NCBI GenBank assembly: GCA_013298545.1
Contig: JAAFIA010000010.1
Span: 1-64,000 of the forward strand
Reading direction: 5' to 3'
Origin: Bacteroidota bacterium
Lineage (GTDB): Bacteria > Bacteroidota > Bacteroidia > Palsa-965
DNA length: 64,000 nt
Made by a program: the position numbers and the translations under genes. Every line of letters begins with the position of its first letter. Position 1 is the stretch's first letter. The notes under the pieces were generated by a model. That model saw only the letters and a list, made by a program, of their open reading frames with translations, was not told the origin of the DNA and ran no database searches. Of the stretch, positions 1-17,630 are shown piece after piece.

Positions 1-87
1 AACACAAAGAAACCGTACTTCAAACCTCACGAGTATCTGCGGGGGGACGTCCACAAATCGTGCGAAGTTGTAATGAAAATGAGCTAA
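1..87 (+). CDS. C-terminal end of an ORF running in from the left edge (…NTKKPYFKPHEYLRGDVHKSCEVVMKMS*)
   Basis: Open frame from base 1 to TAA at 85-87, convergent with the recombinase; product unknown. Confidence 0.35.
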   Translation, partial: NTKKPYFKPHEYLRGDVHKSCEVVMKMS

Positions 88-117
88 CCGGCCTCAATCG
101 TCAGGCTCATTTTCATT
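72..117. repeat. 13-bp inverted repeat AATGAAAATGAGC / GCTCATTTTCATT
   Basis: Perfect arms at ~72-84 and ~105-117, 20-nt loop, spanning the recombinase 3' end. Confidence 0.8.
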
Positions 118-1712: not shown

Positions 1713-1723
1713 ATTGCTTGGTT

Positions 1724-2155
1724 TTAAATGGTGTTTACTTGACTTGTTGCCCAGTTTGGTTGAAATATATCGGCCACATATAGTATTTTAGTTCCTTTCA
1801 GATTGCACAAATCCCACAAGCGCACAAATCGACGACAATTAAATTTGGGCAAATTGTCGAACGTATAAACAAGAATATAGTTGATATTATTTTGCGCTAT
1901 AAAAAGTAGCATCTTATCAAACTCTTTAAGGTTCTCATCTCTAGTAGTACCGCCAAAATTTGCGGTAATTTTTAAATTATGCCGATCCCCGAATTGGTTA
2001 AACTCCTTTAATTGCGATTCAATACATACTTGCCCAGCCCGTAAATGGTCGCCAGTTTTGATATAAGTAACGGCAAGTTTTTGTTTTGGGGTCTTACAAA
2101 CTTCTACACCTTTTGTAGATTGGAAGTTTTCGGATGTACTTAGGTTGTTTTTCAT
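1724..2155 (-). CDS. Resolvase N-terminal-like protein lacking catalytic residues
   Basis: Aligns by eye with the recombinase N-terminus (FGGTTRDENLKEFDKMLLFIAQNNINYILVYTFDNL), but YTRVSD is YIKTGD and ERFSRSG is DNLPKFN. Confidence 0.75.
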   Translation of the reverse strand: MKNNLSTSENFQSTKGVEVCKTPKQKLAVTYIKTGDHLRAGQVCIESQLKEFNQFGDRHNLKITANFGGTTRDENLKEFDKMLLFIAQNNINYILVYTFDNLPKFNCRRFVRLWDLCNLKGTKILYVADIFQPNWATSQVNTI

Positions 2156-2173
2156 GTTATTTGGTTTTTTGGT

Positions 2174-2329
2174 TTAAAGATTTTCGTTTGGAGGATCAAC
2201 AGCCAAGAGAATATCAACAAACTGGTTAAGTTGTTGCATAAGTTCGTTTACTTGTTCGTCTGATAGATCCGACAAGCCGTATTTTGTTTTAATGGCTTGT
2301 AAGTCGATTTGATTTTTTGAATTTTCCAC
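2174..2329 (-). CDS. Possible 51-aa ORF with GTG start (VENSKNQIDLQAIKTKYGLSDLSDEQVNELMQQLNQFVDILLAVDPPNENL)
   Basis: Read manually from the minus strand; overlaps the 3' end of 2248..2529 in another frame. Confidence 0.4.
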   Translation of the reverse strand: MENSKNQIDLQAIKTKYGLSDLSDEQVNELMQQLNQFVDILLAVDPPNENL

Positions 2330-2529
2330 TTGTCAACTTCACTAAAACGCAATCCTATTTTTAAGGTCTTGCATTTTTTTCGTCTTCGTCGCGCCGATTG
2401 GTCGGAGCGTTTTTCTTTTCTATTTCTTTCTACACTTGGAAGGTATTTTATTTGCTTTTCAAAGAACGAAACGGGCCATTTTGCCCCCTTTTGTCCTTTT
2501 AAATTACGCAATAAAAATAGCCTTACCAA
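2248..2529 (-). CDS. Small basic hypothetical protein
   Basis: 93-aa ORF; contains KIGLRFSEVDKWKIQKI, weakly reminiscent of mobilisation/ribbon-helix-helix proteins. Confidence 0.35.
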   Translation of the reverse strand: MVRLFLLRNLKGQKGAKWPVSFFEKQIKYLPSVERNRKEKRSDQSARRRRKKCKTLKIGLRFSEVDKWKIQKIKSTYKPLKQNTACRIYQTNK

Positions 2530-2717
2530 TTAATCTGCTTCGGGTTGAATTTCAGCAGTTTAGAGCTTGTTAAATGTGCCCTAGTCAATGCCTAAAAAAT
2601 GCTGATTTGTCAATAAATACAACCCAATCAGCCGTTTTCAATTGCTCTGTTTCGCCCCCTTTTTTCCTTGCTTGGCTCTCTTTCTGTTTCTCTTTCTTTC
2701 GCTCTCTTTTTGTTTCT

Positions 2718-3638
2718 CTAAAGTTTGATTTTTACCGTGTTCTGAATCTTTACAATTTCGCCGTTATGTTTTACGATGGAAATACTTTGGTAGTTACTTT
2801 CAGCCAAAATATCCACGATCTTTTTTTGTGTATCAACTTCGCGGATTAATTCTACACAATCTATTTTTTTGTTTGAGAATTTTACGGTGATGGATTTATA
2901 TTTTTTGCTTTGAATGAGGGTTAAAATTTGTTGTTCCTCAAGGGAGTAATATTTTAGTGCCGTAGCAATTTGGGAAAATCGTTTTTCGCCGAGTATATCC
3001 GCAAGAAGTCCGGTAATTGATATTTTTAAATGTGTGCTTGTATTAAGTTTTCGGATTTCGTTTTTGTCTAGTTGATTCAATCCGTCTTCGGGTAGCGGTA
3101 AAAATGATCCGTCTATAAAAACGGCTAAGGAAACGAACTGCTTTTTTTGGATCGCTTCTGCGATTAGCAATTGAAAAATAGAAATCGTTTTTTCGCCGTG
3201 TTTGTGCTTTTTCCATTCCCCCGCGTTGATGTAGTGTTTAAGGTTTTCTGCTTCTCTTTTGTCAATATCCAATTTGTCAATAAAGGAGGGTAGCTTTTCG
3301 AGTTTCTCAAAAATAGAAAATTCGGTTTCGGAGTGTGTGATGGATTGGCGTAGGGTAACGATGGCGGCAACGTTTAAACCAAAACCGCGAAGCTGTTGTA
3401 CAAGCCGAAGCCAAATAAAATTCTCAAAGGTGAATTTGTGGCGTTTCCTAATAGTTGGGTCGTGGTCAATTGGAACAATTAATCCGCTCCTAATCCATTC
3501 TTTTAAAAGTTGTGGCGAAATATCTAAATCGGAACTGCTTAACGTGTAGTCTTCCGTTAAGAGGCTTAAAAGTTCTTTTGCTTTTTGGGTGGTTTTGTTA
3601 TCAAAAAACCGAGCCAATGTATTTTCTGTCTGCTTCAT
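2718..3638 (-). CDS. MerR-like HTH transcriptional regulator
   Basis: ISPQLLKEWIRSGLIVPIDHDPTIRKRHKFTFENFIWLRLVQQLRGFGL resembles MerR-type winged HTH. Confidence 0.65.
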   Translation of the reverse strand: MKQTENTLARFFDNKTTQKAKELLSLLTEDYTLSSSDLDISPQLLKEWIRSGLIVPIDHDPTIRKRHKFTFENFIWLRLVQQLRGFGLNVAAIVTLRQSITHSETEFSIFEKLEKLPSFIDKLDIDKREAENLKHYINAGEWKKHKHGEKTISIFQLLIAEAIQKKQFVSLAVFIDGSFLPLPEDGLNQLDKNEIRKLNTSTHLKISITGLLADILGEKRFSQIATALKYYSLEEQQILTLIQSKKYKSITVKFSNKKIDCVELIREVDTQKKIVDILAESNYQSISIVKHNGEIVKIQNTVKIKL

Positions 3639-3840
3639 ATCAAATTCCTTTGTATAAAGTTAATAAAAGTATTTTTACTAACCAAGTTTACGGCAATTTA
3701 TTTTACAAAAAGAAAACTAAAACCAGTTGATTTATGGATTATGTAGCAGCAATTCAGCAGCACAATAAAACAACCGTCCGCCATTGTTCTACCTTTGCGC
3801 TACCATTGTTCGCTTATGGGCTTAAAGACGGCTTAGGGAC

Positions 3841-4126
3841 ACACCCTAGAACATCAATAAAATCAAGGGTTTTATGTTTTGGACCGTCTTTGGAACACAA
3901 GTCTTGCACCAAGAACGCTCCAAGAACACACCTAGAACATTTAAAAAGTCCGTATTTGTTGGGTGGTGCGTTCTTAGATTTCTCTTGGAACATTGTTTTG
4001 CGTGTTTTTGTGTTCCAAAGCCTTTGGGTGCATCCTTGAGGACATTAAAAACGGGTTTGAGGGGCTAAAACTGGGGGTCTTTTCGTGTTGTGGAGTTCTA
4101 GGATAGGCGGGAACGGTTCTAGGGTG
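3841..4126. repeat. Dispersed CACC(C)TAGAAC / GTTCTAGG(GTG) repeats and a 13-bp inverted repeat CTTTGGAACACAA / TTGTGTTCCAAAG
   Basis: Copies at ~3841-3854, ~3928-3940, ~4095-4102 (rc), ~4116-4126 (rc); 13-bp IR at ~3888-3900 and ~4008-4020; non-coding. Confidence 0.65.
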
Positions 4127-4224
4127 CTTTGATCCGCCGTTGGAATTGAACGCATAAACCGTAAAAGGATTGTTTTCTTGCTTGTTTGGTTCTGTGGTGT
4201 TTGTGGATTGTTCCAAATGGATAT

Positions 4225-4252
4225 AAAAAAAGCCAACTTATTAAAAGTTGGC
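4225..4252 (-). terminator. Intrinsic terminator
   Basis: Stem GCCAACTT/AAGTTGGC, 5-nt loop, T-run on the minus strand. Confidence 0.8.
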
Positions 4253-4341
4253 CTTAGACCCGGACTAAAAAAGTAGTTTATTTTCTGCAAAGCTGCATGA
4301 TGGATCAGCCGTAAGTCAAAACGGGTCTTGCGTAAGGGTAT

Positions 4342-4368
4342 AAAAAAACCGCCTGAACGATCAGGCGG
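4342..4368 (-). terminator. Intrinsic terminator downstream of the LPD1 gene
   Basis: Perfect stem CCGCCTGA/TCAGGCGG with ACGA loop, T7 on the minus strand. Confidence 0.9.
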
Positions 4369-4394
4369 CGGTATGCAATAGCGAAAAAATAAAC

Positions 4395-5621
4395 TTAGTG
4401 GATTATCTGCCGTGCTTTGTTGGCAGCGTTTGGCGTTAGCTTGCTTCGGATTGCGGCTATTAGCGTGTCAAAATCCTTTTCAAGTTTAGCAATTTCGTTT
4501 AGACTGAGGTAGTAGGCGTTTTCGTATTTCAGTTCTTGCAGATACAAATTAAGCCAGCCTCGTTTTTTTAATTTGTAGAGGATATATATTTCAAAAGCAC
4601 GGGCAAAAATTTCGTTTCGCCGATACCAGTAGTCATTTGCTTTTGCCTTTGCTTTTAATCGAATGTAATAGGTGGACAGTTCGTTACCGGACGAGGACCA
4701 GATAATGCCTTTCAAAATTTTCTCCATCAAACCGCGAAGGTTCTTTTTTGCGATTAAGCTATTATTTACGTTCGTACTGGTTGACCCGCCACCCGTAAGG
4801 GCTTCTTTTCCATTGGACATCGGATCAATATAATATCCGGCAAAATAGTCTAAAGCATGGCCGTACTCGTGTGCAAGAGATCCAACACCACCCGAACGCA
4901 TCAACCGCTCTTCGCGTTTTACTTTACTGGCCTTAATCCTTGCCGCAGATTCACGTTTAAAGCGCGTTAAATTGATAACAAAGGTACTCGGCTCAAAGTG
5001 TGCTAATGCTTTTCCTGATCCACGCGCACCGAATGCCATTGACAAAATTTTATGAAATCCGATTTGTTTGGAAGAAAATCCTAGAATAGTTTGCAAATCA
5101 AAAAAAGCAAGAGCCGCCCCGTTTAGATAATTTAGGCGGTCTAACTGATTCAACCAGTTTCCATACTCAATGCCGGAGATGGCAAAGTAATCTTGAAAAT
5201 ATCGTTCGCTCGATGGATCAAAGTTGGATGGTATTTTTTGCCCCTTTCTTATATCGGTATTTTGATCGTTAAACAAAACTTTCATATCCTTTTTATTCCA
5301 GTATCGGTCAATCATTCCTCGTGGGGCTGTTTTGCCGCGATCCGTTAGTTTACCAAGTTGGTTGTTTGGTAACAAACGTTCTAGGTCTTGATAGGTTTCT
5401 AGTTCCTCGACTTGATTGGAAAACGCTAGATTAATTAGCCCGCCTTGTGGCATGGCGGAAATAGCCAAATTCAGTTTAAAGATCATGTAATCTTTTTTCA
5501 CCTTTTCGGATTCATTTCTTACGGTTGTGTTTTTGATTTTGACAAGCGCGGCGCGAATTTCTCTAACGCCTCTTTTTCCCTCTAGCCTGTAAAATTCTTG
5601 TTTAGCTTGCTCGATGTTCAT
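4395..5621 (-). CDS. LPD1 (large polyvalent protein-associated domain 1)-type zinc metalloprotease-like protein
   Basis: GARGSGKALAHFEPSTFVINLTRFK ... GVGSLAHEYGHALDYFAGYY motifs. Confidence 0.8.
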   Translation of the reverse strand: MNIEQAKQEFYRLEGKRGVREIRAALVKIKNTTVRNESEKVKKDYMIFKLNLAISAMPQGGLINLAFSNQVEELETYQDLERLLPNNQLGKLTDRGKTAPRGMIDRYWNKKDMKVLFNDQNTDIRKGQKIPSNFDPSSERYFQDYFAISGIEYGNWLNQLDRLNYLNGAALAFFDLQTILGFSSKQIGFHKILSMAFGARGSGKALAHFEPSTFVINLTRFKRESAARIKASKVKREERLMRSGGVGSLAHEYGHALDYFAGYYIDPMSNGKEALTGGGSTSTNVNNSLIAKKNLRGLMEKILKGIIWSSSGNELSTYYIRLKAKAKANDYWYRRNEIFARAFEIYILYKLKKRGWLNLYLQELKYENAYYLSLNEIAKLEKDFDTLIAAIRSKLTPNAANKARQIIH

Positions 5622-6337
5622 TTTTTTCGTTTTTTAAAGGTTGACTTTTTACTACTTCTGCTTACTAATTTACTTGCGCCCCACAGGGCTAAAGCTGTTA
5701 GCCCAAGTCCAAGTCCTAGATTTGAGTTTGGCTTTTCTGTTGGGCTTTCTTTTTTTGGGCTTGTTTGTGGTGGCGGTTGGTTTGATGGTGATTTGTTTTC
5801 CTTGCTTACTTGAATGGGTGGGCCACCGCGAATTTTGGAAATGGTCGCCGCGTTTTTTTCAATGCCTATACGGTAGTGTTCGCGGTTATCCCCGTTTGCT
5901 TCGCTGATATAGGGCGAAAGGGAAATACTTTTAGCGTAGGCGTTGACATCATTGGAAAGGGCCGCACTAGATTTGTATTTGCTCGAAATTAACCGTGCAT
6001 GATCGGCAAAGCCATCGGCAGCATTTTTATACTTGCGAAACTTCAGCCCTGAAGATTTAGAGGTATAGGACTGACCGTCCCAAAACGTATTTGGATTTCC
6101 CCCTGCTGTAATGCCGAAAAAATTAAAAATGTTCTTTGCCATGTACGATGTACCCCACCCGCTTTCTAGTGCGGCCTGGGCCATGATTACAAGCGGATTT
6201 AGGCCGAACTGCTTTGCAGCAATTTCGGCCTGTGGATAATAGGTATGTACAAAATTCTGTTGATCGCTTGCGGTGATTCCCGCCAAGCCTATGGCCTCAT
6301 GTGTGCCAAGTAGTGAAACTCGTTGCTCGTCTTCCAT
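5618..6337 (-). CDS. Glucosaminidase (FlgJ-like endo-beta-N-acetylglucosaminidase) with C-terminal TM helix and basic tail
   Basis: FGLNPLVIMAQAALESGWGTSYMAKNIFNFFGITAGGN; C-terminal LGLGLGLTALALWGASKLVSRSSKKSTFKKRKK. Confidence 0.85.
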   Translation of the reverse strand: MEDEQRVSLLGTHEAIGLAGITASDQQNFVHTYYPQAEIAAKQFGLNPLVIMAQAALESGWGTSYMAKNIFNFFGITAGGNPNTFWDGQSYTSKSSGLKFRKYKNAADGFADHARLISSKYKSSAALSNDVNAYAKSISLSPYISEANGDNREHYRIGIEKNAATISKIRGGPPIQVSKENKSPSNQPPPQTSPKKESPTEKPNSNLGLGLGLTALALWGASKLVSRSSKKSTFKKRKK

Positions 6338-6368
6338 CCCCTCAGTTTTTTAGTTGGTGAATTTTAAT

Positions 6369-6761
6369 TCAATTCCATTCCATTGGATAGCCCCATATTG
6401 GCGCGTGTGTTCGTAATTCAAACGCATTAAAATTTGTATGATGCAAAACGATGTTGTAATTATTTAAAAAAGTTACCGCTTCGGTCATGCTATACGGGTC
6501 GAAGGTCAAGCACTTGTATTTATGAACTAAGGCTAAATCAATGCGTTCTTTTGAGGTAATTACATGGGCGATCAACTGCGTAAATCCATCGCGATCATAT
6601 AAACTTTTTGTACTAGTGTCGGTAAACTTGGCCACGATGTCGATAGAATGTAAATCGCAAAACTGTTTGATGGCTTTGTATTGTTCTACAAGTTCTTCGG
6701 CCTTGTTTTCATCATCGACACATAAATAAATTACGGCACGGTACTTCATGTTGATTCTCAT
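6369..6761 (-). CDS. Second resolvase N-terminal-like protein lacking catalytic residues
   Basis: RAVIYLCVDDENKAEELVEQYKAIKQFCDLHSIDIVAKFTDT...DGFTQLIAHV aligns with the recombinase domain, but catalytic Ser and the Arg motif are absent. Confidence 0.65.
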   Translation of the reverse strand: MRINMKYRAVIYLCVDDENKAEELVEQYKAIKQFCDLHSIDIVAKFTDTSTKSLYDRDGFTQLIAHVITSKERIDLALVHKYKCLTFDPYSMTEAVTFLNNYNIVLHHTNFNAFELRTHAPIWGYPMEWN

Positions 6762-6779
6762 AGGGCATAAGTATTAAAA

Positions 6780-7745
6780 TTAGTTTATTGCTAATTGTTC
6801 TTTTAAATGCTTGGGTAAGACTAAAAACACATCTTTGGCCTTGCACCAGTATCTATTTCCATCGGGTGCAAGAAAGCACACAAACAAGCCCTTTAACGTA
6901 TTGACACAACCAAGCGGAAAACCAAGTAGCACCCGATCCCTCATGTGTGTAATGGGTTTTAACTGGTCATCCAAAATATAGGTTGCTTTGCGTGTAGCAA
7001 TTTGCGGCTGCTCTTGCTCAATGCCTGAGAGTTGGGCGTGCATGAATTTTTCGCCCCTTTTTCTACGCACGTCCATTTGTTTTGGGTTGATAAATTCAAC
7101 TTGCGATTTTGCTACCCAAACCTTGCGTTTGTGCTTTTCAAAAACCGTTTCTACTTCAACAAATATTACGTCTTTGCCCACATCCGTTTTAGCATTTCCG
7201 GTGGTCAATCCAATAAGCCGCGAATGTGGAACGGTTTTAATAATATTAGAAATCTCAAACAGACTGGTTTTGTTTGGGGTGCTTCGGATATTGGTTTCAT
7301 TGTTGGTCAAGACCCAATCTAATTTGGGTACACCGTCGCGTTCAACAGCATAGTTTACACTTGAATCTGTTGAAACACGAGCCATAGCATAAAACGCATT
7401 TAATACCGATGGCTGCAATTTTTTCAAATCCTCATTGAGCGAACGGCCATAACGTGCGTTATAGGAATCTACAACAGCTTGAAAATTGGTTATTTCCTTG
7501 CCTATGTTTATCAGAGCTTGTGTATCTGTTGCATCCAGTAAAAACAGACTTTGAAACCCTACACGGTTTAAGGTGTTATAGATTCTAACGGCTTGGCTGT
7601 TAGCCTGATCTTCGGTAAAGGTTTTATCCTCTTTTTGCTGTCTTCCAGTATCTCTTTTTTTGCCAAAGAAACGCCACAAGAAAATACCACCACCAACCAG
7701 TAAACCGTATTTTAATAATTGTCCGATAAGTGCTACCTGTAACAT
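6780..7745 (-). CDS. N-terminally membrane-anchored hypothetical protein with an annexin-like segment
   Basis: TM at residues ~8-25; TDTQALINIGKEITNFQAVVDSYNARYGRSLNEDLKKL. Confidence 0.6.
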   Translation of the reverse strand: MLQVALIGQLLKYGLLVGGGIFLWRFFGKKRDTGRQQKEDKTFTEDQANSQAVRIYNTLNRVGFQSLFLLDATDTQALINIGKEITNFQAVVDSYNARYGRSLNEDLKKLQPSVLNAFYAMARVSTDSSVNYAVERDGVPKLDWVLTNNETNIRSTPNKTSLFEISNIIKTVPHSRLIGLTTGNAKTDVGKDVIFVEVETVFEKHKRKVWVAKSQVEFINPKQMDVRRKRGEKFMHAQLSGIEQEQPQIATRKATYILDDQLKPITHMRDRVLLGFPLGCVNTLKGLFVCFLAPDGNRYWCKAKDVFLVLPKHLKEQLAIN

Positions 7746-7746
7746 T

Positions 7747-7983
7747 TTAAAGTAGGTGTTTGTAAGCCTTTGCTTTCGCTACAAGGCTAGGTTTTTCTTT
7801 TATGATTTGTGCTAGGCTTATCGTATCTGCATTACCAAGCATATTGTAAATGGTTTGTAATGCTTGAGCGATGGCGGCGGCTTCGTTCTCGTCCTTTGCC
7901 TGTACGCCGGAGATTTCTAAATTGAAGTCCATATTTTTTAGTTTTTGTCTGTTTTCAAATCGTTTGTTTTGGCTTTTTTGCAC
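7747..7983 (-). CDS. Small hypothetical protein
   Basis: 78-aa ORF in a tightly packed operon. Confidence 0.5.
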   Translation of the reverse strand: MQKSQNKRFENRQKLKNMDFNLEISGVQAKDENEAAAIAQALQTIYNMLGNADTISLAQIIKEKPSLVAKAKAYKHLL

Positions 7984-7998
7984 ACATCACATTTACAG

Positions 7999-9345
7999 TC
8001 ATCCGTCGGCCTCAAAATCGGTATCATCTTCAAAAGGGTTTTCTGCCGTTTCTTGTTCAGGGTTGTCTGTTAGTTCCTGTTCAATATCGTCTGTTTCTTG
8101 AGTTTCGGGGTCTTGTGGTGCATCGTATTCAGGTGGGTAATTTTCCGAATTGGTTTGTACAGGTTGGGGGGCTTGCGTTTTGGGGGCTTGCGCCTGTGGG
8201 GTGGGGTTTGCTTGTTTTACCGTTTGGGCGGTTTTTTGTTGCGCTTGATTCGTAACTGGTGCGTTTTGTTGTACCACTTTCAAAACGGGTTTATTAGTCG
8301 GTGCGCCGCTCACGTTTTGCGCCGGTGTGTTTTTTTCAACATAGTTAAAAATCGCTGCCGCTCCTTTTGGGTTTGTTTGCAAAAAGTAAAGCAGTCCATG
8401 TATCTGTAAATAGTTTTGGAAAGGCAAAGACTTTAACGAGGCACAGACCTGATCTGCCGCCTCAAACTGTTTACGCTGCTCCTCACTCGTGTATGTGGGT
8501 TTAGGCGTAGAACTTCCAACCTTTACACTTGCGTTTGCTTTTTGCTCTACGGGTTGGTTTTGTTCGTCTGTTGGCGTTGGTACGTTGATAATACCCGCTA
8601 ACTGCTCATCATTCAAATTAAACGCGGCTTTTAGCAGTTTGGGATTACGTTTGACGAATGATTCCAACCAGTACGATCCCACTTCTACCAAATTCACCCC
8701 GCCAACACTTCCAAACTGCGGTCGTTGTTTGATTTCCTTTTCGAGTTTTTCAATATACTCGTCCCTATCGCTGATTTCTTCTTTTAGGTTTTTAATTTCT
8801 TTGTCTTTATCCTCTAGCCGAATTTCTTTAATAGCAATATCCATACGGGCGGCGTATTGCTGTGTAAGTAGATCAATGTGCTGCTTGTTTTTCGCTTCGG
8901 TCAGTTTCAATAGTTCTTCGCTATTGCTCGTGTTATTGAAGGGAAGTTGAAAAGGCTTTTGTAAATAGTGTTGTTCAGGCCCTGCAAAATAATTTCCGCT
9001 CATGGGTTGGGAGTTTTCAAATACTCCTGCAAATCCTTGTACTTGGGTTTGGCTAAAGGCATCTTCGCCAAGTTCAATATAAAAATTGGCCTCTGAATCT
9101 TTTACCTTACGCGAATAGCCGCGATATACTTCAATGGTCAATGCCTGTGGACGGTGTGTACGAATAACGTGTGTAATGTCGTTTTGAAAACTAGAAACGC
9201 CCATCTTACGCGAAATCACACAAACAGAGTTTCCATGTTTTTCGAGTGAAACGGAATAGTAAGAAGGCAAGCCCCTTGCCTCACGTTCGCGCATCAATTG
9301 CGCGATGTCGTCCAATTGTTTAACGGCGGCTTGTTGCTGATTCAT
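7999..9345 (-). CDS. Coiled-coil hypothetical protein with Q/P-rich and acidic C-terminus
   Basis: KDKEIKNLKEEISDRDEYIEKLEKEIKQ coiled coil; acidic tail; operon position. Confidence 0.65.
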   Translation of the reverse strand: MNQQQAAVKQLDDIAQLMREREARGLPSYYSVSLEKHGNSVCVISRKMGVSSFQNDITHVIRTHRPQALTIEVYRGYSRKVKDSEANFYIELGEDAFSQTQVQGFAGVFENSQPMSGNYFAGPEQHYLQKPFQLPFNNTSNSEELLKLTEAKNKQHIDLLTQQYAARMDIAIKEIRLEDKDKEIKNLKEEISDRDEYIEKLEKEIKQRPQFGSVGGVNLVEVGSYWLESFVKRNPKLLKAAFNLNDEQLAGIINVPTPTDEQNQPVEQKANASVKVGSSTPKPTYTSEEQRKQFEAADQVCASLKSLPFQNYLQIHGLLYFLQTNPKGAAAIFNYVEKNTPAQNVSGAPTNKPVLKVVQQNAPVTNQAQQKTAQTVKQANPTPQAQAPKTQAPQPVQTNSENYPPEYDAPQDPETQETDDIEQELTDNPEQETAENPFEDDTDFEADG

Positions 9346-9682
9346 GGCAAAGTATTGTTTTTGTTGTGCTTTGAATATGTATCCGTACTAAACGGATCAG
9401 TTGGGGTGTATCAAATCCTGTTGCAGTCCGGTAAGAGATTAGCCCTGAAAATTCAGGTGTTGGATTTTCCGCTTGGCCGCGATCTGAGCCGATATAAAAA
9501 CTGGTATCGCTTTCAATTTCGATGCTTGAAGGATTCCCCACCAAATACACAAAACCATTATCCACACGAAAACTTTTTGCAGTCGGTTCTACATACAAAC
9601 TCATCGGCTCGTAATAAAAACTCAAAACGCCCATCTGCTGCATTCGCTTGTTTAAAAATTCGATCCAAAAATTTTCGTTCAT
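9320..9682 (-). CDS. Small beta-rich hypothetical protein (candidate structural protein)
   Basis: 120-aa ORF, beta-strand-rich pattern; start codon preceded by an octamer array. Confidence 0.6.
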   Translation of the reverse strand: MNENFWIEFLNKRMQQMGVLSFYYEPMSLYVEPTAKSFRVDNGFVYLVGNPSSIEIESDTSFYIGSDRGQAENPTPEFSGLISYRTATGFDTPQLIRLVRIHIQSTTKTILCHESATSRR

Positions 9683-9689
9683 ACTTTTT

Positions 9690-9846
9690 TGAATTAGTGA
9701 ATTAGTGAATTGGTGAATTGGTGAATTGGTGAATTGGTGAATTATTGAGTTGGTGAGTTGGTGAATTGGTAAATTTTTTAATTGGTAAATTTTTTTAATT
9801 CGCTAATTCACCAACTTTCTAATTCACTAATTTTCTAATTCGCCAA
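9690..9846. repeat. Inverted array of 8-bp units (GAATTRGT then ACYAATTC), array A
   Basis: gaattagtgaattagtgaattggtgaattggt... followed by ...aattcaccaactttctaattcactaatt. Confidence 0.9.
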
Positions 9847-10210
9847 CTTTTAAAACTCGTAGGTATATTTTTACTTTGTGTGTGATGGATGCAAAGCCGC
9901 TTTTGTCTTGATAATAGCCGCTCAGTAAACAGGCAGGGGTTGTATGTTCGTCCAGCTTTATGTAACTAATTTTTTTCTTTGGTAGCCCGCTAAAGGCCCG
10001 AGCTTGAAAACGTGTTAAGGGTGCGCTCGTACCTTCTGAAAACTTTACGCATAATTCACCGCGTAAAGGGGCTATTTGTGCAATGGAAATATAAATCCCA
10101 ATCACACGGCAAACCTCTAAGGGTAAGCGAAATTCAAAGGCTTTAAAGCCATTGCGGACGGCCTCGATTTCATAAATTAAATAGCCTTGTGTTTGCTTGC
10201 AGGTTTTCAT
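9827..10210 (-). CDS. Small beta-rich hypothetical protein, similar in pattern to the product of 10210..10569
   Basis: ORF overlaps its neighbour by 1 nt; shared pattern L-x-R-hh-G-hhI ... YLR(L/V) at the C-terminus. Confidence 0.6.
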   Translation of the reverse strand: MKTCKQTQGYLIYEIEAVRNGFKAFEFRLPLEVCRVIGIYISIAQIAPLRGELCVKFSEGTSAPLTRFQARAFSGLPKKKISYIKLDEHTTPACLLSGYYQDKSGFASITHKVKIYLRVLKVGELEN

Positions 10211-10569
10211 TATGCGGATAGTCTTAAATAAATTACTGCGGTATAGGGGTAACTAACTGCTAGTCCTGAATCACGGTAAAGCGTTTTAAATTTCAATCCT
10301 GCCGCTTGGTTATCCAGTTCGTAATACAATTCGTCAACTGGTACGCCCAAATCAGCAGTTAGCATCCGAACCTCATACCCATCAGGGAAAATTTCGGTAC
10401 TGCCGATTGTAACCTTTGAAAGTGTCGAGTTTGCAGCCTCTTTGACTACGTTAATAAAAACACCTGTCAAACGTGCAAAAAGTTTATCCGTTTCAACTTC
10501 AATTTGTACTTGCTCGTTTGCAAATTGAATCGTTACCGGAACGGGTTGATATTTGATATTACCGACCAT
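10210..10569 (-). CDS. Small beta-rich hypothetical protein (candidate structural protein)
   Basis: 119-aa ORF; by-eye paralogue of 9827..10210; preceded by array B. Confidence 0.6.
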   Translation of the reverse strand: MVGNIKYQPVPVTIQFANEQVQIEVETDKLFARLTGVFINVVKEAANSTLSKVTIGSTEIFPDGYEVRMLTADLGVPVDELYYELDNQAAGLKFKTLYRDSGLAVSYPYTAVIYLRLSA

Positions 10570-10585
10570 TGTTTTTGATTTTTAG

Positions 10586-10748
10586 AATTGATAAATTTTT
10601 GAATTGGTGAATTGGTGAATGAATTAGTGAATTTTTGAATTAGTGAATTACTGAGTTAGTGAATTGATAAATTTTTAATTCACCAACTTGCCAATTCACT
10701 AATTCGCCAATTTTCCAATTCGCCAACTTTCCAATTCACCAATTTTCA
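10586..10748. repeat. Octamer inverted array B
   Basis: gaattggtgaattggtgaatgaattagtgaa ... aattcaccaacttgccaattcactaattcgccaatt. Confidence 0.9.
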
Positions 10749-10874
10749 TTTCGCTCTGTTTCTCTTTCTGTTTCTTCGCTCTAAAAGGTGGGGGCGGGCG
10801 GCGCAAAAACTACGCTGATCCACATCTCAAATCCATATCCACCGACTTCCGCCCCCGTTTCCCTTTGTCCTTGT

Positions 10875-11585
10875 TTAGAATGGAATTACGGATGTTCCGA
10901 TAAACGTAACACGCATCCAACAAACCGTCGCAGCAGCAGCCGTCGCAAATTTGAACGGCATTTTAATCTCTACTTGCGGTTCAATTACTTTTGCATTTTC
11001 CAACTTGAAACTGCAAACCTCTACGTCTTGACGGTCGCGGGTATTGAAAATTTCCGCGTCGATTTGCGGCAAAATTTTCTTGCCCCCCGCTTCGAGTTCA
11101 AAATCACCGTTGCGGATAAAGGGCGGGATTAAATAAAAATCTGCCGCTTCTTTTGTTGGGCTTACGGCATAGGCCGTTTTCAATCCTGCAAGCAAAAACC
11201 AGTTATCCTTTTCCAGTTTTGAATTGGCAATACTCGCCAACCCCGTCGCTTTCTGATCAGTACCGATAAACATATCAATACTCGATTTGCTTGTTACTTC
11301 TTTCACCACATAAAAGCGTTGATCGACTAACTGCAAACGTTTTTTTAATAGTCCCATCCGCACATCTTCGGGCAATTGCCCAAAACGCATTTCCATTTCA
11401 TAACGGCTTCCGCGTTGCAGGGTGATCGTTTGACCTTGCAAGAGTTTTTTAGCGGCCTTGTACCGCTTGGCAGGGGGCAATTTTTTAATTGCGCCCAAAA
11501 GTGAATTAAACGTGTCTGTTTCGATACCGAACAATTCTCCAACGTTTCCAAACTCACCGTCCAACAACATTTCTACTTCATTCAT
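10875..11585 (-). CDS. Hypothetical protein (candidate major structural protein)
   Basis: 236-aa ORF in the structural-type operon; preceded by array C; no recognised family. Confidence 0.6.
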   Translation of the reverse strand: MNEVEMLLDGEFGNVGELFGIETDTFNSLLGAIKKLPPAKRYKAAKKLLQGQTITLQRGSRYEMEMRFGQLPEDVRMGLLKKRLQLVDQRFYVVKEVTSKSSIDMFIGTDQKATGLASIANSKLEKDNWFLLAGLKTAYAVSPTKEAADFYLIPPFIRNGDFELEAGGKKILPQIDAEIFNTRDRQDVEVCSFKLENAKVIEPQVEIKMPFKFATAAAATVCWMRVTFIGTSVIPF

Positions 11586-11619
11586 CGTTTTCGGTTTTTT
11601 TAAATTTGTTTAATTTTTT

Positions 11620-11770
11620 GAATTGGCGAATTTTTGAATTTTTGAGTTAGTGAATTTTAGAATTGGTGATTTAGTGATTGGGTGAATTGGTGATTTTTAA
11701 TTCACCAACTGTCCAATTCACTAATTTTTTAATTCACCAATTCACTAATTTTCCAATTCACCAATTCGTT
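11620..11770. repeat. Octamer inverted array C
   Basis: gaattggcgaatttttgaatt...ttcaccaactgtccaattcactaattttttaattcaccaattc. Confidence 0.88.
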
Positions 11771-11771
11771 C

Positions 11772-12299
11772 CTAGATAATGTCAGCCGTCGATTCTTCTT
11801 CTACTTCGTTCCCTGCGAAGGAATTTTCCGAATAAGCATAGTTAGCTGAATTTGATCCTTGCGGGTCTTGCAGGTTTACATCAACTGCGGGGGCGGCATC
11901 AATACTGTAATGCGCCTGTCCGTTTTGGATGCCTACCAGTCCCAAGTCGATTACTTCCAAATTATTGGTTTGGGTTGAACCAAGACCGGAAAAAAACTGG
12001 TCAACTGCCGGAATCAATCGTGCGCCGGACATAAAACCCGATGCAGCAACGCCATAGCCGACCATTTTGATTTTTGGATTATCGTTCAGCGAAGAAATCA
12101 CCACGCCCGCCGCCACTTGTACGGCTGCTTTAATCGGGCCGATATACTGCTTTGCTGTTGGCAGGTAGTTATCTACTGCCTTTTCAATCAAACGATCCAA
12201 AAGCGATGCACCAAGCAACCCACCTGCTACACAAGCCGAGTTTACAAACTCGTCCTTCATCCTCACGAGCGTTAAACGCTCTTTCCAATTTGCTTTCAT
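11772..12299 (-). CDS. Hydrophobic/membrane hypothetical protein
   Basis: Several hydrophobic Gly/Ala-rich segments (ACVAGGLLGASLL, AAVQVAAGVVISSL, GYGVAASGFMSGARL). Confidence 0.6.
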   Translation of the reverse strand: MKANWKERLTLVRMKDEFVNSACVAGGLLGASLLDRLIEKAVDNYLPTAKQYIGPIKAAVQVAAGVVISSLNDNPKIKMVGYGVAASGFMSGARLIPAVDQFFSGLGSTQTNNLEVIDLGLVGIQNGQAHYSIDAAPAVDVNLQDPQGSNSANYAYSENSFAGNEVEEESTADII

Positions 12300-12376
12300 T
12301 GCTTGTTTTTGTTTTTAACTGCTTCCGCTTATCTTTTGCACGGGTGCGGAAATTAACCCTGCTTTTTTTATCCCGC

Positions 12377-14398
12377 CTAGAGATAAAGTGTTTTCGTTTT
12401 GCCGTTTTTAGTTTTTGGTTTGGATTTGCTTTTCGGTGTGTGGTTTTTTTTACGCGGTTTGGCAGACCCCGTTTTTGTTCCCACCAGTCGAAAAGGTTCT
12501 GGTTTTATTTTTTTTGTTTTGACAACCTTACGCGGTTTAGGCGTGGGCTTTTTTGTTTGTTTGGGTTTGGGCTTTGCAGTAGGTTTCTTTTTTGCGCTTG
12601 GTGCTGTTTTTGTTTTTCGCGTTGTACTTGCGCTCTGTTTCTGTTTCTTGTTTCTGTTTCTTTTAATCGTACCCAATCCCGAAATCCCTGATAGTTTTTC
12701 TTTGCCGCTACTCATCAAAAGCAAACCGCCACTTACAAGAAGAGCCGCCGGAACTGCCCACGCGGGTAAGCCTGTTTCTTCGTTTGGCGGTGGTGGTGGT
12801 GGATTTTCACCCGCCCCCTGTCCATCGTTTATAAGTTTTTCGTTTTGCTTTGGTGTTTTTTCGTTTTGATCGCTTGCGCCCGATTTTTTCAAAAGTCGTG
12901 AAGGATTTACCTTACTGAGTAATTTTTTTACGTTGACTTTCGAGGCAAAGGCTTTTAGTTTGGCTAAAAAGGGAACACTCGCCGCCGTTGTCGTGGCTGC
13001 GCTCACGGGTTCAACCACACCAAAAGAAATACCATTTAAGCCACCCGCTCGACCGCTTAAAATCGTATGCCGGAACGTTTCAGGGCTTCCCTGCAAGACA
13101 CGCACAAAAATGTGTTCTGCTTCGCTTAATGCGTGTTTGGCTTTGGTATATTCTTCCGTATCGAAACCCTGACTGGCGGCCTGATCGGGCGACAAATAAC
13201 CCCATTTCAACGTTTCTGCAATCTGAAACAGGTTTGTTTTCATGGCAAGCAAAACACCCGCACGGGCGGCAACCGTTAAAGGATTATACTTTACTAAGGC
13301 TTGCCCTGCATCCTTCACGTTCTCTTTTTGATTTTGAACGGCTTCTTTTACACGATCAAAAAATTTACGCTGCCATGCCACACGACCCAAGCCAACAACA
13401 ACGCCCGATAAGTCGGTTTGATAATCCAAGATTATCGTTTCTTCTGAGCCGCTACCAAGTAATCCGTTTATGCGTGTTTCTTGTTCGCTCAGTCGGCGTA
13501 AGGCTTCGTCCCGTTGTGGGGTATGCCAATGCTTTAAGGCGTAGTCGATTAGTTTAAGAAAGGTTTCAGGGTGTTCAACTTCGCGGATCAGTTCGGGATT
13601 GCTTTGTACCAGTTCCCGCGTTTTTACTAAATGGTTGTAAATGGCATCCGGTGTGTCCGTGCTGCCAATCCCCGCAAAATCCGACCCGCTCACTAAATCA
13701 AGGAGCGGCGAAGATTCGCCAACACCTGAAAGTATGGCTATATCAATACCCGATAAATTTGTTTTGCTTGCCATGTTTCTATTTTTTTCTTGTGTATAAA
13801 ATGTTCTTTGGTAGTTCTTATCTTGTTTTACTGAAATCGGAAAATCTCGAATTTCAGCAGGTGGTTTTTCGCTATCGAAATAATCTAACACACAGTCCAG
13901 AATTATATCGCGTTCTCCATCGTGCGCGATAACGTAGATATGTTGAAAGTGTTCTACGCCCTCATACCGTGCAATGCGTAAACGATGGGGGATGCCAAGC
14001 ACAGACAAGCAGCAGGAAAGAGTAATAGAAAAATCGTCGCAATCAATTCCGTAACCTGCTAAATTTCCTTCCCAATAGCTGCGGGCAGGTGTGCGTAACT
14101 GCTCACGTCCTTTTATATCTTCTAAATAATTGCAACGCGAATACCAAAAGTTCCAAAGGTTGCGGCACGTTTGATAAATTGTTTTTGCTCGCTGTGTGGG
14201 TGCAAATTGATTGACTTGATACTGATAGGTTTTTATTACGCCAAATATTTTCTCAATCACTATATCCAAATCCCCATTGGGACGGATAATTGTTTCCTTC
14301 CAATCGCATGGCTCAAATAAGCGATCATAGCGTGTACTTTTTATTACGCGCTTTTCGGTGGTGGACACCAAACCCAAATTTCCCAACTTCACTTCCAT
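12377..14398 (-). CDS. Transglutaminase-like protein with TM helix and long Lys/Pro-rich tail
   Basis: GIDCDDFSITLSCCLSVLGIPHRLRIAR...HFQHIYVIAHDGERDIILDCVLD; AVPAALLVSGGLLLMSS; basic tail KKKPTAKPKPKQTKKPTPKPRK. Confidence 0.8.
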   Translation of the reverse strand: MEVKLGNLGLVSTTEKRVIKSTRYDRLFEPCDWKETIIRPNGDLDIVIEKIFGVIKTYQYQVNQFAPTQRAKTIYQTCRNLWNFWYSRCNYLEDIKGREQLRTPARSYWEGNLAGYGIDCDDFSITLSCCLSVLGIPHRLRIARYEGVEHFQHIYVIAHDGERDIILDCVLDYFDSEKPPAEIRDFPISVKQDKNYQRTFYTQEKNRNMASKTNLSGIDIAILSGVGESSPLLDLVSGSDFAGIGSTDTPDAIYNHLVKTRELVQSNPELIREVEHPETFLKLIDYALKHWHTPQRDEALRRLSEQETRINGLLGSGSEETIILDYQTDLSGVVVGLGRVAWQRKFFDRVKEAVQNQKENVKDAGQALVKYNPLTVAARAGVLLAMKTNLFQIAETLKWGYLSPDQAASQGFDTEEYTKAKHALSEAEHIFVRVLQGSPETFRHTILSGRAGGLNGISFGVVEPVSAATTTAASVPFLAKLKAFASKVNVKKLLSKVNPSRLLKKSGASDQNEKTPKQNEKLINDGQGAGENPPPPPPNEETGLPAWAVPAALLVSGGLLLMSSGKEKLSGISGLGTIKRNRNKKQKQSASTTRKTKTAPSAKKKPTAKPKPKQTKKPTPKPRKVVKTKKIKPEPFRLVGTKTGSAKPRKKNHTPKSKSKPKTKNGKTKTLYL

Positions 14399-14409
14399 CG
14401 CTTTTTTTA

Positions 14410-14632
14410 TTTGGTGATTTTTTGAGTTAGTGAATTGGCGATTTTTTCAATTCACCAATTCACCAACTGCCCAACTTCACGGTTCAACTTCACTAGTCAA
14501 CTCCACTTTCCAACTTCACGGTTCAACTTCACTAGTCAACTCCACTTTCCAACTTCACTTTTTTAATTCACTAATTCAAAAATTCACTAACTCACCAATT
14601 CGTCAATTCACCAACTCGCCAATTTCCTAAAT
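14410..14632. repeat. Octamer inverted array D with an embedded 39-bp direct repeat
   Basis: Octamers at both ends; ccaacttcacggttcaacttcactagtcaactccacttt at ~14471 and ~14510. Confidence 0.88.
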
Positions 14633-15058
14633 CGTGAAAATCTTTTCTGCTTTATATGGAATACCATCAGCCTGAGTAAACACTTCCAGTTTTAGTGTCC
14701 GGTTTGCTTTTTGTCCTTTTAAGAGCAGGGGAGCAAGCGCGGGTATATTTGTTAAAGGAATAAACAGGTTTACTTTCAACTTTGTACGCGCCCTTTTTTT
14801 TATCGCGTGTGTTTCTTCGCTTGGTTCGCTGTTGCCTACCTCGCTATCCATCAAATACACTTTTAAAAGGGGCTGAGTTATGGTAAACGCATGACCCGAA
14901 AAATTATCTATCGTGATTTCAGCCCACATTTTTAAACTCGCTTGCTCTATGCCCACAATGGCAACCTGCGTAACGTTTATACTTAATTTTTGGGCGGCAT
15001 TTGCTAATGAATAAAGCCATGCCGCACCACCCCCGATCAATGCTAATGAAAAAATCAT
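14627..15058 (-). CDS. Membrane-anchored LEA14-like hypothetical protein
   Basis: N-terminal TM (FSLALIGGGAAWLYSLA) followed by a beta-rich domain with INVTQVAIVGIEQASLKMWAEITIDNFSGHAFTI. Confidence 0.5.
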   Translation of the reverse strand: MIFSLALIGGGAAWLYSLANAAQKLSINVTQVAIVGIEQASLKMWAEITIDNFSGHAFTITQPLLKVYLMDSEVGNSEPSEETHAIKKRARTKLKVNLFIPLTNIPALAPLLLKGQKANRTLKLEVFTQADGIPYKAEKIFTI

Positions 15059-15300
15059 TTTTTAATCTCCTTCCCGCATTCCTCACACGTTGCCTTGTTT
15101 TTGGTTTCTCGTACTTCGCGCTGCTTGGCATTGTATCTGTCAATGAGCATACGAATACCAAACCACACAAAACCGCCAATAATGGAACGTATCGTAAAAT
15201 CTAACATCCCGCCGCTCTCCATGCCTGCCAAAAAAATAGAACTACTTAACAAAATGTCGTCCGTCGTTCCGCTCGTTGCTATGCTTCCCATGTTTTTCAT
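15055..15300 (-). CDS. Small membrane protein with C-terminal CxxC
   Basis: TM segment IRSIIGGFVWFGIRMLI; CEECGKEIKK end. Confidence 0.5.
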   Translation of the reverse strand: MKNMGSIATSGTTDDILLSSSIFLAGMESGGMLDFTIRSIIGGFVWFGIRMLIDRYNAKQREVRETKNKATCEECGKEIKK

Positions 15301-15489
15301 TTGACTTAGTTTTTTGTTTAGTCAAAGGTCTTACATCGAAAAATTACGCGGGATAAATTGGAACAACTTAGGACAACTTTTGCAACTTCGTTTTTTGTAA
15401 GTGGTTGAAAAAGTATTTAAACTGGTCATTTTTCACACTCCATTTTTTTCGGTTCAAACATAAAAAATATCTTTTGCTCACGATTTGGC

Positions 15490-15519
15490 ACAAAAAAACC
15501 GGACTTCTTTTGTCCGGTT
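15490..15519 (-). terminator. Intrinsic terminator
   Basis: AACCGGAC/GTCCGGTT stem with T-run on the minus strand. Confidence 0.85.
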
Positions 15520-15543
15520 ATCCTTGCTTGTTTTAGTGTGCAA

Positions 15544-15942
15544 TTACTTCTTTTTCTTTTTACGTTTTTCTGCTTTAGAAAAGGAATCTTGACCCCATTC
15601 CTCGTCGTTGTCTAGCTGATTATCTTTTGTTGCATTTGCAAAGTCTTCCATTTCCTTTTTCTTATTACTCATGTACATACTTTGCAATTCGTCCTCCGTG
15701 TAATTCTCCAGTACCATAAATTCAGGTAAGCCTTGATGACTTATAAAGCGTCGAACATTGTCGATGCTCAAATAATGCGAATGCCTAGCATTGAAAAAAA
15801 TACCCGCATTATGCAACCATTTTTCTATCGTTTTGCGACCAACTTGGTACATACGCTGCAAATCCGCTTTTTTCATAGGCCGGATTCTAAACACAGTTAT
15901 GCGCCGACGGTTGTAGCTGTCTTCGTCATGGAGCGAATACAT
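15544..15942 (-). CDS. Small HTH DNA-binding protein
   Basis: MKKADLQRMYQVGRKTIEKWLHNAGIF HTH pattern; basic C-terminus. Confidence 0.6.
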   Translation of the reverse strand: MYSLHDEDSYNRRRITVFRIRPMKKADLQRMYQVGRKTIEKWLHNAGIFFNARHSHYLSIDNVRRFISHQGLPEFMVLENYTEDELQSMYMSNKKKEMEDFANATKDNQLDNDEEWGQDSFSKAEKRKKKKK

Positions 15943-16223
15943 AAAAGTTATTTTTTGGAGTTTTTGAAACGGATGTTTTAGGTGTCCTCCGTTTTCTAGG
16001 GTTATGCCTTTGAGTAGTTACAATACACGTTCTTTGTTTTTCGTTTGTGCTAATTTTCTCTTGTTCGCCAGTTGTTTCGTTTTGATGGATGTGTAGCCCA
16101 GTTCTACGATTAATTTTGCATCCTCTTGGTATGCAATTAGTATAACGCGGCTAACGTGTTAAGGTTGCTTCTATTGTACAAATGGGGGGGATTATTTCAC
16201 AAGTGTTTGATTTTTTTAACGAA

Positions 16224-16640
16224 TTACAATTTTTTACTATGTACTTCGTTTTGCGAAATTTTATTTTTGGTATTCGTTTCTGCCATACCCGAAATGCAAT
16301 CCAGTTGTATCTGTTCTGTTTTCTCTGTTATCGCAAATTCAGCTCGTATATGCTTTTTTTCTCCCGCGTGTATTGTTTCACCTGTTAATGCTCCATCATG
16401 TGCCAATGTGTCCCCATCTTTTCCCATGCAATAAACTTCTATCAACAGGTTTTTGTAATGCGTGTTTGGGGCTTTATTCGTTATCGAAAATTCTGCTTCG
16501 CATAAGGAATCGTTTAGTTTCTTAAACGATAAAATTTTGCCTTCTAAATAATAACGGGATCGTGTTTCGGGATGGATGGTTTTATTGGTGTTATAACACG
16601 AAACAATAAACGCAATACCCAAAACTAAAAACGTTCTCAT
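16224..16640 (-). CDS. Putative lipoprotein
   Basis: Signal peptide plus lipobox-like FIVSC. Confidence 0.6.
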   Translation of the reverse strand: MRTFLVLGIAFIVSCYNTNKTIHPETRSRYYLEGKILSFKKLNDSLCEAEFSITNKAPNTHYKNLLIEVYCMGKDGDTLAHDGALTGETIHAGEKKHIRAEFAITEKTEQIQLDCISGMAETNTKNKISQNEVHSKKL

Positions 16641-16990: not shown

Positions 16991-17116
16991 TTTCCTTTTT
17001 TATTCACACCCACTTTTTTTCTACTTATTTTTTGCACGTATTGAAATCTGATTTACTTTAGCAGAACATTTCTAAAACTAAGACTATCGACTAAATCACA
17101 TATTAACATATCGTAA

Positions 17117-17280
17117 TAACGCATTGGCGTTAGTGTTGCTTGCTTATCAAAACGGCAAATTTTAACTCAAACAAGGAAACACTAAGCGTCGCGCCGGAAG
17201 GCGTGGGCTTTAGTGTACTTGTTTGAGGGGGCTTTGCCGTCCCTGATAAGCGGTTACTAAAGTACCACGCCGATTTTTTT
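17117..17280 (+). ncRNA. Highly structured palindromic element ending in a T-run (candidate ncRNA/terminator)
   Basis: Nested complementary segments around a GGAA loop; each half also folds alone; T7 at ~17274-17280. Confidence 0.6.
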
Positions 17281-17489
17281 GACTATAAACTATTATTTAT
17301 GTGCTTAAAGTGGACATCGGTTTTAATAATTTGGGCATTGATATTGAAACGAAATACCTGAAAAATAAGCATTACCAATGTCAGAAAACAGACCAAAAAT
17401 GAATGTAAATAAATTGTATTAGTAATTTTTTTTTATCAATTTTATTAAAACGTTTAAACATTAAATAAATAAATATGAACTATCAAAAT

Positions 17490-17532
17490 AAAAAAACCAT
17501 ATCCACGCAAAATGTACGTGGTATATGGATTT
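17490..17532 (-). terminator. Intrinsic terminator of a short minus-strand unit
   Basis: CCATATACCACG...CGTGGATATGG stem followed by T7 on the minus strand. Confidence 0.7.
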
Positions 17533-17561
17533 TCACAGGATTAGGACGTACTAAATTACAT

Positions 17562-17630
17562 CTACCAACCACCATTGCCATCAGTACCAATGATACCTAA
17601 TGCTCTTAAAATTGCTTGAATGAGTTCCAT
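17562..17630 (-). CDS. Candidate 22-aa peptide MELIQAILRALGIIGTDGNGGW
   Basis: ATG to TAG read manually; followed by an intrinsic terminator and divergent from the TPR gene. Confidence 0.4.
   Translation of the reverse strand: MELIQAILRALGIIGTDGNGGW

Follow-up and report, generated by a model that had tools for sequence, protein, structure and literature searches.

Introduction

Transcription attenuators, among them trp-type four-strand leaders, T-box leaders and transcriptional riboswitches, are promoter-proximal 5' leaders in which four strands form the exclusive pairings 1:2, 2:3 and 3:4 and a GC-rich stem followed by a U-run stands ahead of the gene. The palindrome described here lies in a 64,000-nt stretch of DNA, called the window throughout (positions 1 to 64,000, forward strand, of contig JAAFIA010000010.1 in the Bacteroidota bacterium assembly GCA_013298545.1). 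It belongs to a family that resembles the attenuators in these respects. The family differs from them in that the leader is an almost symmetric palindrome whose two long arms are complementary to each other and free in sequence, that one and the same leader module stands before unrelated genes, and that no recognised aptamer, T-box or regulatory peptide is present in the leader. At the family level the leaders have the structural make-up of a transcription attenuator, and on comparative sequence evidence we consider it likely that the palindrome is a copy of a Bacteroidota 5'-leader RNA family acting as an attenuator-type switch. The element family as a whole is probably a portable genetic switch.

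Several RNAs of the same phylum invite comparison. The 6S-flavo RNA (RF01685) is a long imperfect hairpin RNA in Bacteroidetes; the leader is like it in this general shape, is unlike it in giving no cmscan match, and occurs in 1-14 copies next to genes. Flavo-1 RNA (RF01705) and other Bacteroidetes motifs of Weinberg et al. 2010 were found by comparative genomics and have no known function (PMC2864571); the leader likewise is a Bacteroidetes RNA from comparative genomics and, unlike Flavo-1, has no Rfam match. The FopS sRNAs of Bacteroides consist of a single-stranded 5' seed and a terminator hairpin, are present in 14 mostly intergenic copies with sigma-ABfr promoters and terminators, and are said to be deposited in Rfam (PMC11697453). 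The leaders share with FopS the character of a multicopy RNA family with promoters and terminators; the family is nevertheless distinct from FopS, being set apart by the description in PMC11697453 and by the absence of an Rfam match.

Integron attC sites are also palindromes with variable stems and conserved ends; unlike them, the leader has its own promoter and terminator, stands before genes and is mostly single. An attC assignment was rejected on the R' core GTTRRRY: columns 27-33 of the family read GTTAGCT, and the sixth position is C in 76/115 and T in 25/115 copies, not a purine.

Structure of the palindrome

The palindrome arms named in the original prediction were all found in place (Table 1). 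The minimum free energy of 17117-17280 folded as RNA is -71 kcal/mol, compared with -44.4 +/- 4.1 kcal/mol for dinucleotide shuffles (z -6.4; 0/200 shuffles as good). In the long fold, 17123-17135 pairs with 17255-17274, 17138-17149 with 17244-17254, 17152-17163 with 17229-17240, 17166-17175 with 17218-17227, and 17179-17195 with 17200-17216. The left half folds by itself through 17126-17142/17172-17190 (-16.9 kcal/mol), and the right half through 17200-17225/17247-17271 with an inner helix 17227-17232/17239-17244 (-40.7 kcal/mol), the T7 run coming directly after. From 5' to 3' the strands run A i A' B i' B'; A-B', i-i' and A'-B make up the long fold, and A-A' and B-B' the half folds. Arm i varies in sequence across the family, with its pairing preserved.

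A GC-rich stem followed by a U-run, as in an intrinsic terminator, is present in the window (GGCGTGG/CCACGCC, then T7). Across the family, T occupies columns 173-177 in 83-91% of the 115 copies, and the first bases of this T-run can pair with an upstream A/T stretch in the long fold. The sequence TAACGC-ATTG-GCGTTA (17117-17132), earlier taken for a flank of the palindrome, proved to be the 5' end of the element itself; this exact form is confined to the copies in the genome of the window, the consensus elsewhere being TAACATATCAGCGTTAG.

Table 1. Positions of the leader element and of neighbouring features in the window
Feature	Position	Strand	Remarks
Large serine recombinase	84-1712	-	In virus-like/mobile segment
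Resolvase-like fragment	1724-2155		In virus-like/mobile segment
MerR-like	2718-3638		In virus-like/mobile segment
LPD1 protein	4395-5621		In virus-like/mobile segment
Glucosaminidase/endolysin	5618-6337		In virus-like/mobile segment
TTTG, -33-like element of a Bacteroidota-type promoter	17031-17034	+	Putative; 19-nt spacing to the -7-like element
TACTTTAG, -7-like element	17054-17061	+	One mismatch from TAnnTTTG; 63 nt 5' of the palindrome
Presumed untranslated leader, promoter to structured element	17062-17116	+	AAGACTATCGAC..TAACATATCGTAA conserved with the C154 copy (alignment)
Whole structured leader RNA element	17117-17280	+	Covariance model R1 173 bits, R2 117 bits
Strand A (GGCGTTAGTGTT)	17126-17137	+	Partner A' (left hairpin) or B' (long-hairpin base)
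Arm i, left arm of long hairpin	17138-17175	+	Blocks 17138-17149, 17152-17163, 17166-17175; partner 17218-17254
Strand A' (ACACTAAGCGTCGCGCC)	17178-17195	+	Partner A (left hairpin) or B (long-hairpin apex)
Strand B (GGCGTGGGCTTTAGTGT)	17200-17216	+	Partner A' or B' (terminator stem); triple covariation
Arm i', right arm of long hairpin	17218-17254	+	Also inner right hairpin 17227-17232/17239-17244
Strand B' (..ACTAAAGTACCACGCC)	17255-17271	+	3' arm of terminator stem with B, or long-hairpin base with A
T7 run, intrinsic-terminator-like end	17274-17280	+	Read in the sequence
Small ORF, 41 aa, putative	17475-17600	+	No annotation; downstream of the element
First long downstream ORF, 517 aa	17737-19290	+	Starts 457 nt after the T-run

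Copies and distribution

A search of the window's own genome for copies, proposed at the outset as a check, showed the element to be multicopy, with four diverged copies including that of the window; the relatives match the window copy at 80% (C154), 79% (C103) and 70% (C103). A low-level match at 12539-12580 of the window (E 0.03) was set aside as chance. Among 99 related genomes BLASTN gave one more, more distant relative, and six sister species held no copy of the element. Compensatory changes were already seen at 15 pairs in five sequences. Covariance model R1 was built from five sequences and R2 from 82 relatives. Full-length relatives were recognised by R1 in 88/395 genomes of the class, belonging to 54/197 genera, and relatives were recognised by R2 in 110/390; in a phylum sample, 31/395 genomes matched R1 (E <= 1e-4), four of them outside the class. 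Under full scoring of 12 deeply searched genomes, most of them chosen for richness in copies, 1 to 14 copies per genome were counted, with the maximum in a 1.9-Mb genome. A composite DNA pattern run over named genomes gave 28 loci, Bacteroidota assemblies in every case.

The plasmid search yielded only two records with the element, both from gut Bacteroidales: one of Parabacteroides distasonis (69.8 bits, 52 nt before a hypothetical protein) and one of Phocaeicola massiliensis (58.1 bits). Two scans of viral contigs with 17-20-mers returned nothing, or chance matches without the palindrome; six such 17-mer matches, used as a negative control, were not recognised by R2, and a viral signature was rejected at the sensitivity of these scans. 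Phages searched by BLASTN with the consensus and one leader gave nothing, or spurious short matches.

No match was returned by cmscan against Rfam release 15 (4227 families, gathering threshold) in the window, or over the element in 19 loci (7 + 12) with relatives. A search of largely open-access literature found no description of the leader family; this absence is weak evidence of novelty. The original prediction had named a single-copy, unconserved sequence lacking covariation as the outcome that would speak against it. The element is multicopy, conserved and, as set out below, covarying.

Covariation of the two folds

All column pairs were scanned without bias in a MAFFT alignment made from sequence alone (115 copies, effective number 106). 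The arms i/i' were recovered as diagonals 188/189 with z about 20, the base of the long hairpin as diagonal 193 and its apex as 192-194, while the right hairpin appeared as diagonals 267 and 265 and the left hairpin as 114 and 111. The weakest signals were those of the left hairpin and the apex. A further diagonal, 358, joins the 3' arm of the terminator to a segment beyond the T-run (GTCCC with GGGAC).

A second alignment, of 82 sequences, was scored for both sets of helices. For the arms with the left and right hairpins, 92% of cells were paired vs 37-46% when the columns were slid by 1-3, and 487 cells were changed on both sides vs 151 in shuffles; for the arms with base and apex, 89.8% were paired and 499 cells were changed on both sides, all such counts ignoring the relatedness of the sequences. 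The paired fraction was 96% in the terminator helix and 94% in the left base, with changes on both sides present, and 88% in the long-fold base and 93% in the apex. G-U pairs were common among the helix variants. Model R1 contained the arms and the apex, with the left, right (terminator) and base helices outside it, and the copies were therefore not selected for these latter helices.

In four sequences from different families, a U-to-C change at column 126 of strand B is accompanied by A-to-G changes in A' as well as in B'. Two response-regulator leaders have C replaced by G at column 124 of this strand, and both of its partners there carry C in place of G. One strand keeping two partners is what alternative pairing predicts, and such triple covariation is the sharpest evidence for two folds. 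A conserved pairing that excludes the terminator, the mark of an antiterminator, is present in the family. The mutually exclusive folds first read in the window alone, for which a covariance model had been suggested as a check, are in this way supported by crossing helices that both covary and by the A'-B-B' triples.

Over the family the right half of the palindrome shows strong stability (mean z -3.4), and the left half is barely above shuffles (z -1.2). The long fold exceeds the two half folds in stability by 13.9 kcal/mol on average, so that formation of the terminator would have to be kinetic or assisted. Certain bases that are unpaired in the long fold are invariant or nearly so: A48 and A49 in 115/115 copies, C140 in 113/115, C141 in 110/115 and T142 in 106/115. 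These flank helices of constant length and free sequence.

Position between promoter and gene

The family set comprised the 115 collected copies; between L028 and L029 homology runs 100 nt upstream of the element. An exact TAnnTTTG, the -7 element of Bacteroidota, is found 40-80 nt upstream in 65/115 copies, vs 3.7 expected and a maximum of 12 in 200 Markov-shuffled sets. Downstream, an ORF of 100 aa or more begins on the same strand within 160 nt in 81 of the 110 copies with enough downstream sequence, vs 12/110 for divergent ORFs upstream and 18% at random positions. The distance to the ORF start clusters at ~40-50 nt and is most commonly about 45 nt. The family lies between promoter and gene, as attenuator leaders do; for the window copy this applies to the promoter-like element only.

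A constitutive, terminator-ended structured sRNA of ~210 nt, acting in trans or bound by protein, with the downstream gene reached through leaky read-through, could be made from promoter, structure and T-run alone. The window copy, those of C103 and some others have no close downstream ORF, and a 14-member paralogous sRNA family exists in Bacteroides (FopS, PMC11697453). We regard this account as unlikely, because in most copies a start codon follows on the same strand at most ~50 nt after the T-run and because the covarying downstream helix on diagonal 358 needs read-through.

A leader-peptide attenuator of the trp-like kind, in which ribosomes on a mini-ORF of 1-2 codons (ATGTAA, ATGAAATAA) ~20-30 nt upstream would choose the fold, has in its favour an excess of short reading frames: an ATG and a stop within 6 codons are present in 48/115 leaders vs a null of 30 +/- 4.3, clustered 20-29 nt upstream. 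These frames are absent from over half of the copies, any ATG at all is present in only 59/115, and the mini-ORFs end upstream of strand A, all of which makes such control highly improbable. A trp-type attenuator was rejected, since no regulatory ORF overlaps strand 1 and the enrichment is modest and not general. ATGTAA was counted 12 times and ATGAAATAA 8 times in the interval 20-30 nt before the element.

The downstream proteins are varied and include N4/N6 DNA methylases, other restriction-modification proteins, response regulators, PKD/T9SS proteins and lipoproteins, among others. In 51 of 62 leader pairs with an identity of 77% or more across 180 bp or more, the proteins that follow are unrelated, a count in which the pairs are not independent and a few 'related' assignments depend on alignments that are very short. 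Before unrelated genes the identity of leaders reaches 90%, and the unit of homology typically begins close to the promoter and stops shortly ahead of the start codon. Similar leaders before unrelated proteins therefore point to a promoter-plus-RNA module common to unrelated genes. It may be, though we lean against it, that this module is a portable gene-independent cassette, one RNA switch class with its own promoter placed before unrelated genes across Bacteroidota and answering one common signal or trans-acting factor. The genes under such a cassette would be those for DNA methylases, response regulators, lipoproteins and type IX-secreted proteins.

Some variants of the leader were recorded. 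Four response-regulator leaders (L083, L085, L090, L115) share a variant 3' end, CCACCCCTCTTTTTTGAGGGG, and the three strands all carry corresponding changes. In another subtype (L050, L055, L072, L089, L093, L096, L102, L108, L124) the terminator is prolonged by GCAGRTTTTTTGTGGCT..AACACAAAAA a short way ahead of the start codon; it is common before DNA methylase and restriction genes and occurs also before other genes. L140:2842-5699 holds two nearly identical tandem leaders 2.3 kb apart, each with a different downstream ORF, and the 94% identity within the pair begins 615 nt upstream of the element and extends 48 nt beyond it.

Proposed mechanism

The module would consist of a promoter, a leader of about 45 nt, the palindromic RNA of ~165 nt and the U-run, with A, A', B and B' as the four pairing strands of the RNA and i and i' as two variable arms complementary to each other. 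During transcription the left hairpin A-A' could form first. If A-A' were kept, B would be free to pair with B' beside the U-run, giving an intrinsic terminator and a stop before the gene. If instead A' were captured by B, and A by B', with i-i' holding, the long hairpin would result, the terminator stem would be dismantled and the U-run partly paired, and RNA polymerase would go on to transcribe the gene, which starts some 45 nt further on. At the base of the long hairpin B' is predicted to be paired and, in the family consensus, the initial residues of the U-run as well, their partner being the A/U-rich 5' edge (TATCAGCG with CGCTGATTTT). The sign of the switch could also be reversed, the long hairpin terminating, because a hairpin whose base pairs the U-run can itself terminate.

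The folds would alternate during transcription and the choice between them would answer a signal. The site for this signal is probably the invariant unpaired AA, A-ATTT and CCT positions, through a ligand or protein, or else the upstream leader. The downstream genes have no common function that points to a ligand. Of the riboswitch-like RNA originally proposed, with a right-hairpin terminator and a long-fold antiterminator, the architecture is upheld by covarying folds in promoter-proximal 5' leaders; ligand sensing and switching by this RNA are putative.

RNA-based regulation in Bacteroidota is poorly charted, and the leader precedes restriction-modification, signalling and surface genes. If the attenuator reading is true, a leader RNA found in about a quarter of the class genomes sampled, in up to 14 copies, would represent a sizeable missing regulatory layer. 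Its occurrence in the gut species Parabacteroides distasonis and Phocaeicola massiliensis makes it directly testable. The independently covarying alternative folds, triple covariation included, would offer a clear-cut natural example of a bistable RNA that evolution has maintained.

Mobility and element boundaries

A folded single-strand recombination site and an element boundary had also been proposed for the palindrome; neither is supported, since relatives have unrelated neighbours and lie at a fixed distance from gene starts. Next to the window palindrome lies a virus-like or mobile segment that includes a serine recombinase. Positions 1-17.1 kb of the window showed no protein similarity to the C154 and C103 neighbourhoods, and a boundary or phage att site was rejected on the different surroundings of these copies. 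Since the other copies have no related segment alongside, the palindrome is not the boundary of the virus-like or mobile segment. The idea of a mobile palindromic unit fared partly better: a promoter-plus-RNA module does recur before unrelated genes, but no transposase or transposon ends were found.

Were the element a mobile DNA module, of the MITE/REP-like kind or a gene-cassette recombination site, its palindrome would be kept for a DNA transaction, and the promoter and terminator would be by-products driving cargo. The patchy distribution with absence from six sister species, near-identical leaders (up to 90%) before unrelated genes, occasional tandem copies (C103, L066, L140) and the mobile or defence genes that are sometimes neighbours would fit such a module. 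Against it, the promoter, the spacing to the start codon and the T-run are conserved, as for an RNA; the terminator and long-fold helices covary separately, with G-U pairs common among the variants; no transposase or recombinase family is common to the flanks (for transposases, as judged by eye); and most loci are without array structure. On balance we think a mobile DNA module very unlikely and retain the attenuator-type RNA leader. No empty sites could be identified in the sister genomes, because the flanking genes there are paralogous or absent, and a test at genus level with an L065 gene gave a large paralogous family.

The window copy and its surroundings

The window copy still has its promoter-like elements, the two folds and the T-run; unlike in its relatives, a close downstream gene is absent. 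For want of an adjacent gene, it may be a relict that lost its gene or a stand-alone short RNA. The C103 copies are also without the usual close ORF, and the C154 copy, which has an exact -7 element (TACTTTTG), is followed only by a 123-aa ORF ~120 nt downstream. The 517-aa ORF downstream of the window copy gave no Pfam or NCBIfam match; it is a member of a paralogous family in this bacterial family, with no clear orthologous locus in the sister genomes.

Positions 1-16640 of the window form the virus-like or mobile segment, which contains many ORFans; no capsid family was recognised by Pfam or PHROGs in its scanned ORFs. A tract of 13-nt and 8-nt tandem repeats occupies 14440-14634, just upstream of the ORF at 12377-14398 on the minus strand. 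At L017:175-5738 the C154 copy is preceded by an island that carries a phage-type tyrosine integrase and a DnaC/IstB-like ATPase of 614 aa. Two of the four copies in the window's own genome, C154 and one of those of C103 (L002, L004, L018), are followed by another hairpin that they share, TTGCCTA..TGT..AGGGGTTATGC..TAGGC.
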